A stretch of DNA of 64,000 nucleotides from the NCBI GenBank assembly GCA_015057505.1, contig SVEG01000006.1:110391-174390 (forward strand). The letters are read 5' to 3'. The notes under the pieces were generated by a model. It was given only the letters and a program-made list of their open reading frames with translations, searched no databases and had not been told where the DNA came from. Below, in pieces: positions 3,789-10,473 of the stretch. Positions within the stretch are counted from its first letter, which is position 1. Each line of letters opens with the position of its first letter. The translations under genes and the position numbers were made by a program. The stretch is from Lachnospiraceae bacterium. Lineage in GTDB: Bacteria; Bacillota; Clostridia; Lachnospirales; Lachnospiraceae.

Positions 3789-3799
3789 AGGTTTACAGT

Positions 3800-3835
3800 T
3801 TAGCCATGCGGGCATAATTTGGCCTGCATGGCTAA
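3800..3835. terminator. Strong hairpin after GH105 gene
   Basis: TTAGCCATGC ... GCATGGCTAA inverted repeat with an inner GGC/GCC extension; no clear U tract on + strand. Confidence 0.5.
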
Positions 3836-3869
3836 ATAAAAATAAAATGAAAAAAACGCTTAAAACGTC

Positions 3870-3899: not shown

Positions 3900-3935
3900 A
3901 CCACAGATAATATTTTGAATAAGGAGAATATAGCT

Positions 3936-5339
3936 ATGGGTGGCATATTTGGAGTAGCTTCAAAAACGAACTGTATTACGGATTTATTCTTCGGAACGGA
4001 TTATCATTCACATCTCGGTACAAGAAGAGGTGGTATGGCCGTTTTTGGTGAGAAGGGTTTTGACAGAGCCATTCATAATATTGAAAATTCTCCGTTTCGT
4101 ACGAAGTTTGAGCGAGATTATGAAGAGATGGAAGGCAATCTTGGTATAGGATGTATTTCAGATAATGAACCGCAGCCTTTGATTGTACGCTCGCATCTCG
4201 GTAATTTTGCAATTACCACTGTCGGTAAAATTAACAACATGGACGACCTTGTTAAAGAGGCCTTTGATCAGGGTAGTACTCATTTTTTGGAAATGAGCGG
4301 TGGAGACATTAATCAGACGGAGCTTGTGGCTTCATTGATTAACAGAAGAGATTCTATTGTAGAAGGTCTTTTATACGCACAGGAGAAAATCCAAGGGTCC
4401 ATGAGCATTTTAATAATGACCCCGAACTGTATTTACGCTATGCGTGATCGTTTGGGTAGGACGCCTCTGGTTCTTGGTAAAAAGAAAGAGGCTTTTTGTG
4501 TGTCTTTTGAGAATTTTGCATATCTTAATCTCGGATATCACGATTACAGAGAGCTCGGTGCCGGAGAGATTGTTAAGGTTACCCCCGAGAGTGTGGAGGT
4601 TATGTCGCCGCCAAGAGATGAGATGAAGATATGTACATTTCTTTGGGTTTACTACGGATATCCCACATCAGTTTATGAGGGCGTGGGTGTAGAAGAAATG
4701 TGTTACCGTAATGGTCGCAACATGGCAAGGCGCGATGATGTAAAGGCAGATATCGTTGCGGGTGTACCGGATTCGGGAATACCGCATGCCATAGGATACG
4801 CCAACGAATCGGGAATACCTTTTGCGAGACCGTTTATCAAATATACTCCTACATGGCAGCGTTCATTTATGCCGACCAGACAGTCTGAGCGTAACATGAT
4901 AGCTAACATGAAGCTTATAGCGGTAGAATCTTTAATAAAGGATAAGAGTCTTCTTCTTATAGATGATTCCATCGTAAGAGGAACGCAGCTTCGCGAGAAG
5001 ACAGAATCTTTATATGAAAGCGGTGCGAAGGAGGTTCATATCAGACCTGCATGTCCGCCACTTTTATATGGTTGTAAGTACCTTAACTTTTCGCGTTCCA
5101 AGTCGGAGATGGATTTGATTACGAGAAGAGTTATTGCTAAGAGAGAAGGCGAGGTTACACCTGAACTTTTGGCAGACTACTCCAATCCTGAAAGCGCCAA
5201 TTATAAGGCAATGGTGCAGGATATCTGCAAGGAGCTTATTTTTACAACATTGAATTTTAACCGTCTTGACGATATGATAGACGCAGTCGGCATTAGCCCC
5301 TGCAAGCTCTGTACATATTGCTGGAACGGTAAAGAATAG
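3936..5339 (+). CDS. Amidophosphoribosyltransferase (PurF) paralog lacking the catalytic N-terminal Cys
   Basis: Start at 3936 (SD AAGGAG) gives MGGIFGVASK...; PRPP-binding loop LLLIDDSIVRGTQ intact; C-terminal CKLCTYC. Confidence 0.85.
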   Translation: MGGIFGVASKTNCITDLFFGTDYHSHLGTRRGGMAVFGEKGFDRAIHNIENSPFRTKFERDYEEMEGNLGIGCISDNEPQPLIVRSHLGNFAITTVGKINNMDDLVKEAFDQGSTHFLEMSGGDINQTELVASLINRRDSIVEGLLYAQEKIQGSMSILIMTPNCIYAMRDRLGRTPLVLGKKKEAFCVSFENFAYLNLGYHDYRELGAGEIVKVTPESVEVMSPPRDEMKICTFLWVYYGYPTSVYEGVGVEEMCYRNGRNMARRDDVKADIVAGVPDSGIPHAIGYANESGIPFARPFIKYTPTWQRSFMPTRQSERNMIANMKLIAVESLIKDKSLLLIDDSIVRGTQLREKTESLYESGAKEVHIRPACPPLLYGCKYLNFSRSKSEMDLITRRVIAKREGEVTPELLADYSNPESANYKAMVQDICKELIFTTLNFNRLDDMIDAVGISPCKLCTYCWNGKE

Positions 5340-5345
5340 ATGGAA

Positions 5346-5478
5346 GTTCAGAGCCGGGCAGAATTACTGCAAGCCGGGCGATGAATGCTTGCATTCCGGA
5401 GAACGGTTTGCGGTAATTCTATTTGGCGAGAGCCAAATCGCGAGAAAATACGAAGTGTTTTCGAGTGTGGCTCTGAAC
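5346..5478 (+). ncRNA. Candidate structured RNA / 5'UTR element with four nested or adjacent stems upstream of carB
   Basis: P1 GTTCAGAGCC(5346-5355)/GGCTCTGAAC(5469-5478); P2 5360-5376/5404-5420 (17 bp, 2 GU); terminal GAATG-CTTG-CATTC; P3 ATTTGGC-GAGA-GCCAAAT 5421-5438; P4 GAAAATAC-GAA-GTGTTTTC 5444-5462. Confidence 0.55.
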
Positions 5479-5515
5479 CGTTAAAAAATACATAAAAATC
5501 GGAGGAAACGTTACT

Positions 5516-8500
5516 ATGGGTAAGAGAAATGACATTCACAAAGTACTTATTATAGGTTCCGGTCCTATCATCATCGGACAGGCCTGCGAGTTTGACTATT
5601 CAGGAACACAGGCGTGTAAGGCACTCCGCAGCTTAGGATATGAGATTGTTTTGGTTAACTCTAATCCTGCTACAATTATGACTGACCCTCAGACAGCTGA
5701 TGTAACATATATCGAGCCGTTGAATGTAGAGCGTCTTGAGCAGATTATTGCAAAAGAAAGACCGGATGCATTGCTTCCTAACCTTGGCGGACAGTCAGGT
5801 CTTAACCTTTGTTCAGAGCTTGCTGAGGCAGGTGTTTTGGATAAATATAATGTAAAGGTTATCGGTGTTCAGGTTGACGCTATCGAGAGAGGCGAGGACA
5901 GAATCGAGTTCAAGAAGACCATGGACAGCCTTGGAATTGAGATGGCACGAAGCGACGTTGCCTACACTGTAGACGAGGCACTTGCAATCGCCGATAAGCT
6001 TGGATATCCCGTAGTAATCCGTCCCGCATACACAATGGGTGGTGCAGGTGGCGGCCTCGTTTATAACGTAGAAGAATTAAAGACTGTAGTTGCAAGAGGT
6101 CTTCAGGCCAGCCTTGTAGGCCAGGTACTTGTTGAGGAGTCAATCCTTGGTTGGGAAGAGCTTGAACTTGAGGTTGTTCGTGACTCCAAGAACAACATGA
6201 TTACAGTTTGCTTTATTGAAAATATCGACCCCATCGGTGTACATACAGGTGACTCCTTCTGTTCAGCGCCTATGCTTACAATTTCAGAGGCAACACAGAA
6301 GCGTTTACAGGAGCAGGCATATAAGATTGTAGAAGCAATCGAAGTTATCGGCGGTACAAACGTACAGTTTGCACATGACCCGGTAAGCGATAGAATCGTT
6401 GTAATCGAGATTAACCCCAGAACATCACGTTCATCGGCACTTGCTTCTAAAGCAACAGGTTTCCCGATTGCACTTGTTTCTGCAATGCTTGCAGCAGGAC
6501 TTACACTTGATGAGATTCCTTGCGGTAAGTACGGTACACTTGATAAGTACGTTCCGGATGGAGATTACATCGTAATTAAGTTCGCTCGTTGGGCATTTGA
6601 GAAGTTCAAAGGCGCAGAAGATAAGCTTGGTACTCAGATGCGCGCCGTAGGTGAAGTAATGAGTATCGGTAAGACATATAAGGAAGCTTTCCAGAAGGCA
6701 ATCAGAAGCCTTGAGACAGGAAGATACGGTCTTGGTTTTGCAAAGGATTTCAATAGCAAAACAAAAGAAGAGCTTCTTAAGATGCTCCGTGTTCCTACAA
6801 GTGAGCGTCAGTTCATTATGTACGAAGCACTTCGTAAAGGCGCAACAATTGAGGAGATTTATAATCTTACCAAGATTAAGCACTATTTCCTTGAGCAGAT
6901 GAAGGAGCTTGTTGAAGAAGAAGAGGCTCTTATGGCCATGGGTGAGAAGGCTCTTGAGAAAGCTACTCTTGAGACAGCTAAGAAGAACGGTTTCTCAGAT
7001 AAGTACTTAAGCCAGCTTCTTAAGGTTGATGAGACAAAGATTCGTGAGACAAGAATCGGTTACGGTATTACGGAAGCTTGGGAAGGTGTTCACGTAAGCG
7101 GAACAGAAGACAGAGCTTACTACTATTCAACATATAACGCAGAAGACAAGACAGTTGCTACAGACAACAAGAAGATTATTATTCTTGGTGGAGGTCCCAA
7201 CCGTATCGGTCAGGGTATCGAGTTTGACTACTGCTGTGTTCATGCTGCACTTGCTCTTAAAGAGCTTGGATTTGAGACAATTATTATTAACTGTAATCCC
7301 GAGACAGTTTCAACGGATTATGATACATCAGATAAGCTTTATTTTGAGCCGCTTACACTTGAGGATGTTCTCAGTATTTACGAGAAAGAGAAGCCTCTCG
7401 GTGTAATCGCACAGTTCGGTGGACAGACACCGCTTAACCTTGCTGCAGATCTTGAGAAGGCAGGCGTACGTGTACTTGGTACACCGCCGGCAGTTATTGA
7501 TATGGCAGAGGACAGAGATTTGTTCCGTGCCATGATGGATAAGCTTGAGATTCCGATGCCTCAGGCAGGTATGGCAGTAACTGTTGATGAAGCAGTTGAG
7601 ATTGCAGAGGAGATAGGATATCCCGTAATGGTTCGTCCTTCTTACGTACTCGGCGGAAGAGGTATGGAGGTTGTTTACGATCAGGAAAATCTCCGTGCAT
7701 ATATGGCAGCGGCAGTAGGTGTAACACCTGACAGACCGATTCTTATCGATAGATTTTTAAGACATGCAATGGAGTGTGAGGCAGATGCCATCAGTGACGG
7801 AACAAGCGCATTTGTTCCTGCTGTTATGGAGCATATCGAGCTTGCCGGAGTTCATTCAGGTGACTCAGCTTGTATCCTTCCTTCAATGCATATTTCAGAG
7901 AAGAATCTTGAGACAATTAAGGAATATACAAGAAAGATTGCGGTTGAGATGAATGTACGCGGTCTTATGAACATGCAGTATGCAATTGAGGATGATGTGG
8001 TTTACGTATTAGAGGCTAATCCCCGTGCATCCAGAACAGTTCCGTTAGTATCCAAGGTTTGCGGTATCAACATGGTTAATATCGCAACACAGATTATTAC
8101 TTCAGAGCTTACAGGTAAGGAATCACCCGTTCCGGCACTCAAAGAGAAGAACTACAAACACTTTGGTGTTAAGGAAGCGGTATTCCCGTTCAACATGTTC
8201 CATGAGGTTGACCCGTTACTCGGACCGGAGATGCGTTCAACAGGTGAGGTTCTTGGTTTGGCATCAAACTTTGGTGAGGCATTCTTCAAGGCACAGGAGG
8301 CTACACAGTCTAAGCTTCCGACAGAAGGTACGGTTCTTATCAGTGTTAACTCGGCAGATAAGGCAGAGCTTCCCCAGGTTGCAAAAGCGTTCCATGAGTG
8401 TGGCTTTAAGCTCCTTGCTACAGGCAGAACTTACGAGACAATTATTGCAAACGGAATTCCTGCAGAGAAGGTATTTAAGCTTCAGGAAGGCAGACCCAAT

Positions 8501-8734
8501 ATTGCAGATTTAATCATGAACGGACAGATTCAGCTTGTTATCAATACACCTGCAGGAAAAGAAAGTGTATATGATGATAGTTACATCCGTAAGACAGCCA
8601 TCAAGAAGAAGATTCCTTACATGACAACCATGGCAGCAGCAATGGCCACAGCAGAGGGTATCAAGGCTGTTAAGACAAAGGGACAGATTGAAGTTTGCTC
8701 ACTTCAGGAAATTCACAAAAATATTACTGAGTAA
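5516..8734 (+). CDS. carB: Carbamoyl-phosphate synthase large subunit
   Basis: 1072 aa, duplicated ATP-grasp halves, MGKRNDIHKVLIIGSGPIIIGQACEFDYSGTQACKALRSLGYEI; SD GGAGG. Confidence 0.97.
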   Translation: MGKRNDIHKVLIIGSGPIIIGQACEFDYSGTQACKALRSLGYEIVLVNSNPATIMTDPQTADVTYIEPLNVERLEQIIAKERPDALLPNLGGQSGLNLCSELAEAGVLDKYNVKVIGVQVDAIERGEDRIEFKKTMDSLGIEMARSDVAYTVDEALAIADKLGYPVVIRPAYTMGGAGGGLVYNVEELKTVVARGLQASLVGQVLVEESILGWEELELEVVRDSKNNMITVCFIENIDPIGVHTGDSFCSAPMLTISEATQKRLQEQAYKIVEAIEVIGGTNVQFAHDPVSDRIVVIEINPRTSRSSALASKATGFPIALVSAMLAAGLTLDEIPCGKYGTLDKYVPDGDYIVIKFARWAFEKFKGAEDKLGTQMRAVGEVMSIGKTYKEAFQKAIRSLETGRYGLGFAKDFNSKTKEELLKMLRVPTSERQFIMYEALRKGATIEEIYNLTKIKHYFLEQMKELVEEEEALMAMGEKALEKATLETAKKNGFSDKYLSQLLKVDETKIRETRIGYGITEAWEGVHVSGTEDRAYYYSTYNAEDKTVATDNKKIIILGGGPNRIGQGIEFDYCCVHAALALKELGFETIIINCNPETVSTDYDTSDKLYFEPLTLEDVLSIYEKEKPLGVIAQFGGQTPLNLAADLEKAGVRVLGTPPAVIDMAEDRDLFRAMMDKLEIPMPQAGMAVTVDEAVEIAEEIGYPVMVRPSYVLGGRGMEVVYDQENLRAYMAAAVGVTPDRPILIDRFLRHAMECEADAISDGTSAFVPAVMEHIELAGVHSGDSACILPSMHISEKNLETIKEYTRKIAVEMNVRGLMNMQYAIEDDVVYVLEANPRASRTVPLVSKVCGINMVNIATQIITSELTGKESPVPALKEKNYKHFGVKEAVFPFNMFHEVDPLLGPEMRSTGEVLGLASNFGEAFFKAQEATQSKLPTEGTVLISVNSADKAELPQVAKAFHECGFKLLATGRTYETIIANGIPAEKVFKLQEGRPNIADLIMNGQIQLVINTPAGKESVYDDSYIRKTAIKKKIPYMTTMAAAMATAEGIKAVKTKGQIEVCSLQEIHKNITE

Positions 8735-10023: not shown

Positions 10024-10473
10024 ATGACAGATAGCCAAAAATTAGATTTGATACTTGAAAAGGTGGGCGGTCTCGAGGGCAAAATGGATGGCTTTGAGAG
10101 CGGAATGGATAGGCTCGAGGGCAAAATGGATGGCTTTGAGAGCGGAATGGATAGGCTCGAGGGCAAAATGGATGGCTTTGAGAGCAGAATGGATGGTCTC
10201 GAAGGCAAAATGGACGGCTTTGAGAGCAGAATGGATGGTCTCGAAGGCAAAATGGACGGCTTTGAGAGCAGAATGGATGGTCTCGAAGGCAAAATGGACG
10301 GCTTTGAGAGCAGAATGAATGGTTTCGAAGGTAAAGTTAATAAGTTAGAAAATTTATTAATAAAATCTACTTCAGAATTAAAAATGATGGACAAACTGAT
10401 ATTAAGTGAAATTGAGAGGGTTCATGATATTTTGAACAAGCATATATCTGATAAAACAGTACATACAGCGTAA
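10024..10473 (+). CDS. Tandem-repeat coiled-coil protein
   Basis: 149 aa with repeated LEGKMDGFESRMDG 14-mers. Confidence 0.7.
   Translation: MTDSQKLDLILEKVGGLEGKMDGFESGMDRLEGKMDGFESGMDRLEGKMDGFESRMDGLEGKMDGFESRMDGLEGKMDGFESRMDGLEGKMDGFESRMNGFEGKVNKLENLLIKSTSELKMMDKLILSEIERVHDILNKHISDKTVHTA
10072..10323 (+). repeat. Six tandem 42-bp units inside the coiled-coil gene
   Basis: CTCGARGGCAAAATGGAYGGCTTTGAGAGCRGAATGGATRGK at 10072, 10114, 10156, 10198, 10240, 10282. Confidence 0.95.

Follow-up and report, generated by a model that had tools for sequence, protein, structure and literature searches.

The closest described relative of the element considered here is Clostridiales-1 (RF01699), a table entry in Weinberg et al. 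2010 (PMC2864571) that Rfam has listed since 2010, without further explanation, under the type "Gene; sRNA"; in our search of the open-access literature, only that entry and a few passing mentions of it were found. Comparable behavior has been described for two groups of dispersed repeats. The REP/BIME elements of E. coli are palindromic repeats of transcribed spacer regions, and part of them lies no more than 15 nt from stop codons, a position in which REPs are reported to stall ribosomes; REPs located in 3′ UTRs are likewise reported to stabilize mRNA (PMC12306157). The bcr1–bcr18 repeats of the Bacillus cereus group are MITE-like, some with conserved RNA structure, and are transcribed in UTRs and operon spacers, with bcr3 correlating with mRNA decay (PMC3446304).

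The element of interest lies in a 64,000-nucleotide stretch of DNA from a Lachnospiraceae bacterium, which is referred to here as the window. It is 133 nt long and sits inside the 176-nt spacer (5340–5515) between carB and an upstream gene that we, like the preliminary description of this DNA, take from a reading of its sequence to be a PurF paralogue (Table 1), such that the 3′ end of P1 falls 37 nt before the carB ATG (5516). A preliminary description of this DNA had proposed a folded four-way junction at this position, and the fold proved to be real: all four helices were refound with the stem sizes and loops listed in Table 1, as were the spacer length and the position just before carB (there given as ~38 nt). 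The one correction concerns P3, whose 7 bp and GAGA loop stand as described, but which abuts P2 directly instead of starting one nucleotide after it. The minimum free energy of the predicted fold is −67.5 kcal mol–1, compared to a mean of −36.1 kcal mol–1 (sd 3.5) for shuffled sequences (z = −8.9), with 0 of 200 shuffles matching this value, and the fold of the antisense strand is 20 kcal mol–1 less stable. In agreement with the preliminary description, no U-run or intrinsic terminator was found at the element, nor was there a convincing promoter at the window copy. No target duplication flanking 5346/5478 was visible upon inspection, and the copy is without terminal repeats beyond P1. Elsewhere in the window, a strong 16-bp hairpin (TTTAGCCATGCGGGC...GCCTGCATGGCTAAA, 3798–3836) is located upstream of the PurF paralogue, in the gap to the gene before it, and an open reading frame at 10024–10473 is made up of tandem repeats of GKMDGFES(G/R)MDGLE, with a repetitive reading frame on the opposite strand as well.

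Table 1. Features of the element and its surroundings in the window, and the places of copies and relatives of the element elsewhere in the genome.
Feature	Coordinates	Strand	Basis or remark
Whole four-way-junction element, divergent Clostridiales-1-like ("type C")	5346..5478	+	Fold; RF01699 and R1 matches
P1 5′ arm, GTTCAGAGCC; 10 perfect pairs (5346-5355/5469-5478) plus one inner G-U	5346..5355	+	Fold; 10-mer stem shared with the ychF copy L013
P2 5′ arm, 17 bp with 5404-5420	5360..5376	+	Fold
P2 apical hairpin, TGCTTGCA tip, loop common to Clostridiales-1 (arms 5383-5387/5392-5396, loop CTTG)	5383..5396	+	Covariance-model alignments
P2 3′ arm	5404..5420	+	Fold
28-nt core around P3, identical behind asd (G000:C4:57797-57824)	5417..5444	+	100% identity, E = 1.1e-7
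P3, 7 bp, GAGA (GNRA) tetraloop (arms 5421-5427/5432-5438)	5421..5438	+	Fold
P4, 8 bp, GAA triloop, GA/GA tandem mismatch flanks (arms 5444-5451/5455-5462)	5442..5464	+	Fold
P1 3′ arm, GGCTCTGAAC	5469..5478	+	Fold
TAG stop codon of the PurF paralogue; element begins 6 nt 3′	5337..5339	+	ORF list, sequence
Upstream gene, presumed PurF paralogue (amidophosphoribosyltransferase-like)	3915..5339	+	ORF list
Downstream gene carB (carbamoyl-phosphate synthase large subunit)	5516..8734	+	ORF list, orthologues
Copy L010, behind asd			
Copy L013, behind ychF			Carries the GTTCAGAGCC stem
Copy L015, between ABC-type gene and azlC			
Copy L009/L041, behind spoIVB			
Relative L039, between dnaK and dnaJ			
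Relative L204/L214, behind microcompartment-type gene			
Relative L216, short form, behind greA-like gene			
Relative L040, before sugar-kinase gene			

The preliminary description had also mentioned that no named riboswitch of this shape was known. The lack of a named relative holds insofar as no Rfam match at or above the gathering score falls inside 5346–5478, but it is weakly contradicted by a sub-threshold match over the whole of the Clostridiales-1 model. At relaxed thresholds, RF01699 aligns to 5349–5475 over model positions 1 to 166 with 27.7 bits (E = 1.8e-4 for a 221-nt stretch), which is below the gathering score of 48 bits. In this alignment, P1, P3, and P4 fall on their counterparts in the model, as do the triloop of P4 and the GCUUGC tip of P2. 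A model of our own (R1), built from five type-B copies of this genus only, gave 19.3 bits at 5348–5476 (E ~0.005 per 64 kb) as its only match in the window, and its matches in other genera include canonical Clostridiales-1 copies (E ~1e-14). The link to Clostridiales-1 is strengthened by a chain of matches, in that the window element equals L010 over 28 nt, L010 is orthologous to L200 (located behind the asd orthologue of the sister species), and L200 in turn matches R1 with 36.1 bits (E = 2.4e-7).

The likeness extends to the closing of the junction by P1, with a long P2 followed by P3 and then P4 inside it, to the GCUUGC tip of P2 (TGCTTGCA at 5386–5393 in the window), to a P4 that has a purine-rich internal loop and ends in a triloop (GA/GA and GAA at 5442–5464), and to the Clostridiales host. 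In contrast, P3 of Clostridiales-1 is long and has internal loops, whereas that of the window element is a 7-bp GNRA hairpin (P3 is short in the intermediate copies L169, L174, and L200, too), and the window element has a different P1 sequence and is without terminal repeats or tail. Furthermore, Rfam lists Clostridiales-1 as an sRNA gene, in contrast to the repeat behavior encountered here. As judged from its sequence, the window element is thus a diverged relative of Clostridiales-1 ("type C") with apparent shared ancestry, and we do not label it a certified member because the gathering score is not reached and P3 is short. We note that the genome-wide search with RF01699 missed clear copies, for example, L204/L214 (135 bits with R1), and copy numbers based on RF01699 are therefore underestimates.

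Further copies in the same genome, a possibility already raised in the preliminary description, were indeed found at several unrelated loci. Searching the 2.86-Mb assembly at the DNA level returned the exact 28-nt match behind asd together with weaker matches at two other sites, and folding of these and of the pattern matches gave the same P1–P2–P3–P4 order with different P1 and P2 sequences at L010, L013, L015, and L009/L041. Similar elements stand at ~10 unrelated places in all, next to genes whose names are our own presumptive assignments from reading the encoded proteins (Table 1), and the GA/GA flank of P4 recurs in L009b, L010, L013, L015, and L174. No match to the element was obtained in the phage records searched. 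L017 was rejected as a copy of the family, being an ileS T-box just below the cutoff, and T-box leaders slightly under the Rfam gathering score are found at L017 1531–1750 and L056 815–1060. Head-to-tail tandem repeats, either of the 3′ part (P3/P4 and the P1 3′ arm) or of a whole 159-nt unit, occur in L200 (1295–1484), L214 (1501–1900), L169, L172, and L161/L163, and the sister species carries three tandem units behind asd. An almost perfect ~200-nt palindrome behind a prfC-like gene (L206, ~1240–1480, G000:C32) is apparently another, unrelated MITE.

Conservation upstream of carB in relatives, to which the preliminary description had looked for support, was not observed. At the carB junction of the sister species (G001), matching flanks enclose only a 9–14-bp hairpin, GGTTTAGAT-AACA-ATCTGAATC, the arms of which align with P1, and no element was found at this junction in the other carB orthologues examined. 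Within the genus, both species have the element at asd, spoIVB, and the microcompartment-type locus; at dnaK–dnaJ it is full in one species and degraded in the other, and at ychF, azlC, and several other loci it is present in one species only. The absence at carB orthologues, taken together with this turnover between loci, speaks against a regulator specific to carB and is in keeping with a repeat subject to gain, retention, and loss. That the element had inserted into a hairpin already present at the target, as the G001 hairpin might suggest, was set aside, since the ychF copy has the same GTTCAGAGCC stem, which makes P1 part of the element; the hairpin seen in G001 is more probably a remnant. 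The relatives carry two classes of carB, namely, that of the window (~82–94% identity over the N-terminal 250 residues) and another at 52–62%, and several of their genomes hold both.

The placement of the copies follows the upstream gene. With gene ends taken from a simple ORF script, copies in the genus start between −10 and +16 nt relative to the upstream sense stop codon, and all 15 usable copies are nearer to this stop than to the next gene; tandem copies such as L161 and L172, which cannot be placed relative to a stop, are outside this count. Combining the gap ratios by Fisher's method gives p ~3e-12, which is an approximate value, as the copies are not fully independent. Of the 39 R1 contexts, which come from six genomes, 23 have the sense orientation and lie no more than 25 nt from a stop, and none is antisense to a stop. 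The non-MITE forms of this genus and of several others mostly start, in the sense orientation, no more than ~16 nt from the upstream stop, with the stop codon overlapping the P1 5′ arm in several copies, and the window copy conforms to this, its P1 beginning 6 nt after TAG. For the terminal-repeat type of G113, stop-adjacent sense placement was found in only one of nine cases.

Compensatory changes in P1–P4, as envisaged in the preliminary description, are strong in the related copies. In an alignment of 41 copies (A7), 52 of 55 pairs are changed on both sides, and 93.7% of cells are paired, compared to 65.7% after shuffling and at most 40% after sliding, although this alignment was fitted to the structure and the effect size is inflated. 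The asd orthologue pair, which was aligned without a model, has three changed pairs in P1, all of them compensatory (3/3). For type C, arms of different copies cross-pair at a mean of 42%, which is the only informative value here because the own arms were picked from folds. Finally, the sense strand has the more stable fold in 50 of 50 copies, covering all three types, which makes the RNA of this strand the likely selected molecule.

Canonical Clostridiales-1 elements in other Lachnospiraceae are MITEs, and a single genome can hold up to hundreds of sites with their terminal repeat. RF01699 is present in 36 of the 98 genomes of relatives, with up to at least 25 near-identical copies in each. 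We read 40 canonical copies from G063, G028, and G072, most of which end in TGATRCCAGGGTCAAAAGG...CCTTTTGACCCCTACATC, with imperfect terminal repeats (the MITE terminal-repeat ends being given as GATGYYGGGGTCAAAAGG). Perfect direct repeats of 6–7 bp flank 23 of the 31 canonical copies with a recognizable 3′ end, where ~1.5 would be expected from shuffled flank pairing, and the terminal repeat has 194 matches in G063, compared to 6 for the control. An autonomous insertion sequence sharing these terminal repeats was sought in G063, but the ten candidate stretches contained nothing other than housekeeping genes and small terminal-repeat elements. Two minimal repeat-to-repeat palindromes of 38 and 71 nt in the same genome (L157 435–472 and L150 2044–2114, respectively) are possibly solo ends of the same MITE, and several matches in G113 lie at the very start of contigs (C12, C18, C22, C65, and C74), as is expected if the repeat breaks assemblies. 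The mobile palindromic element that the preliminary description had offered as one of two options comes close to being right for the family; the window copy has neither visible target duplication nor terminal repeats beyond P1. The same description had regarded many dispersed copies with target duplications, missing covariation, or an exact Rfam match as speaking against a new RNA motif. The result is mixed: dispersed copies do occur, target duplications are confined to the distant canonical branch, covariation is strongly present, and there is no exact Rfam match.

Taking these observations into account, we consider the identity of the element and its dispersed, structured nature to be near certain. 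The best explanation, to which we assign a probability of roughly 60%, is that of a mobile-derived intercistronic RNA repeat that would act at the end of the upstream message in a REP/bcr-like manner. The window element would then be one copy of a group of dispersed ~120–190-nt four-way-junction RNA repeats with a common ancestry with Clostridiales-1, a family that may spread, or may once have spread, as a non-autonomous mobile element, and whose surviving copies in this genus would mostly have lost their terminal repeats and persisted as intercistronic or 3′-UTR RNA structures. Presumably transcribed together with the upstream gene, the element would most likely block 3′–5′ exonucleases through its fold and/or interact with the terminating ribosome, and would thereby set the amount of the PurF paralogue message relative to carB, as is thought for REP/bcr repeats, and would sense no metabolite of pyrimidine or arginine synthesis. 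It is in its functional step that this explanation is weakest, and we also count against it that the carB site is not conserved (with only the hairpin in G001) and that the window copy is a weak model match with a shortened P3. At 6 nt from the upstream stop, the element lies within the REP-like distance of up to ~15 nt; REPs differ, however, in being 20–40-nt hairpins in many more copies, and they have no sequence relation to the window element. Likewise, no sequence relation to the bcr repeats is known, and stop-codon anchoring is not reported for these in the text consulted (PMC3446304).

It is conceivable, if doubtful, that the non-MITE branches form a translation-termination-coupled RNA class, domesticated from a MITE and found at many Lachnospiraceae genes, in which P1 would begin at the upstream stop codon and often include it, so that the terminating ribosome would open or close the junction and thereby control decay, reinitiation, or downstream expression. 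The main rival to the REP/bcr-like repeat is a purely selfish one, that is, a decayed MITE/REP-like element without host function, for which stop adjacency would reflect tolerated insertion sites and the structure would be kept because mobility had required it. The target-duplicating MITEs among the canonical relatives, the presence/absence turnover between sister species, and the partial and tandem copies are all as such a repeat would have it; we nevertheless consider it unlikely, as neutral insertion would not produce sense-only placement (0 of 39 antisense at stops), the three compensatory pairs found where the site is orthologous and fixed point to selection once the element had inserted, and the window form has no terminal repeats with which it could still move.

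The other readings are far less probable. The carB-specific cis-regulator of the preliminary description, whether as a riboswitch for a pyrimidine, arginine, PRPP, or glutamine or as a protein-binding leader, draws on the 37-nt distance to carB, the compact junction with its GNRA loop, and the z-score of −8.9, but it is largely refuted by the same architecture behind unrelated genes (asd, ychF, the ABC-type gene before azlC, spoIVB, dnaK, and the microcompartment-like gene), by its absence at carB orthologues in the relatives examined, by the lack of a terminator, and by an element start that is tied to the upstream stop and not to carB. We also find it very hard to see an independent trans-acting sRNA gene here, despite the Rfam type label and the strongly covarying structure, given that the window copy has neither a terminator nor a promoter that would convince, P1/P2 sequences that vary between copies and leave little constant antisense region, and the fact that the copies in this genus are always behind a sense gene. 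Integron attC sites are folded sites directly behind stop codons, and a comparable recombination or integration site acting as a folded single DNA strand would be in keeping with the structured sites right behind stops, the tandem 3′ units, and the gain and loss between species. Against this highly improbable reading, the neighbors are conserved housekeeping genes and not cassettes, no cassette array or R′/R″ core boxes were seen, and the bias toward the sense strand, with its G-U pairs and GNRA-type loops, is in line with RNA.

The open-access literature that we searched describes neither the short-P3 type C, nor the branch anchored at stop codons, nor the canonical form as a MITE. That an attractive "orphan riboswitch" before a single gene can be a repeat copy serves as a warning. 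For Clostridiales-1 itself, the evidence divides the family in two, in that some gut Lachnospiraceae carry it as transposable MITEs and others as an RNA branch that covaries, is sense-only, and is anchored at stop codons, and the role suggested for this latter branch is that it may act on message ends after translation termination.
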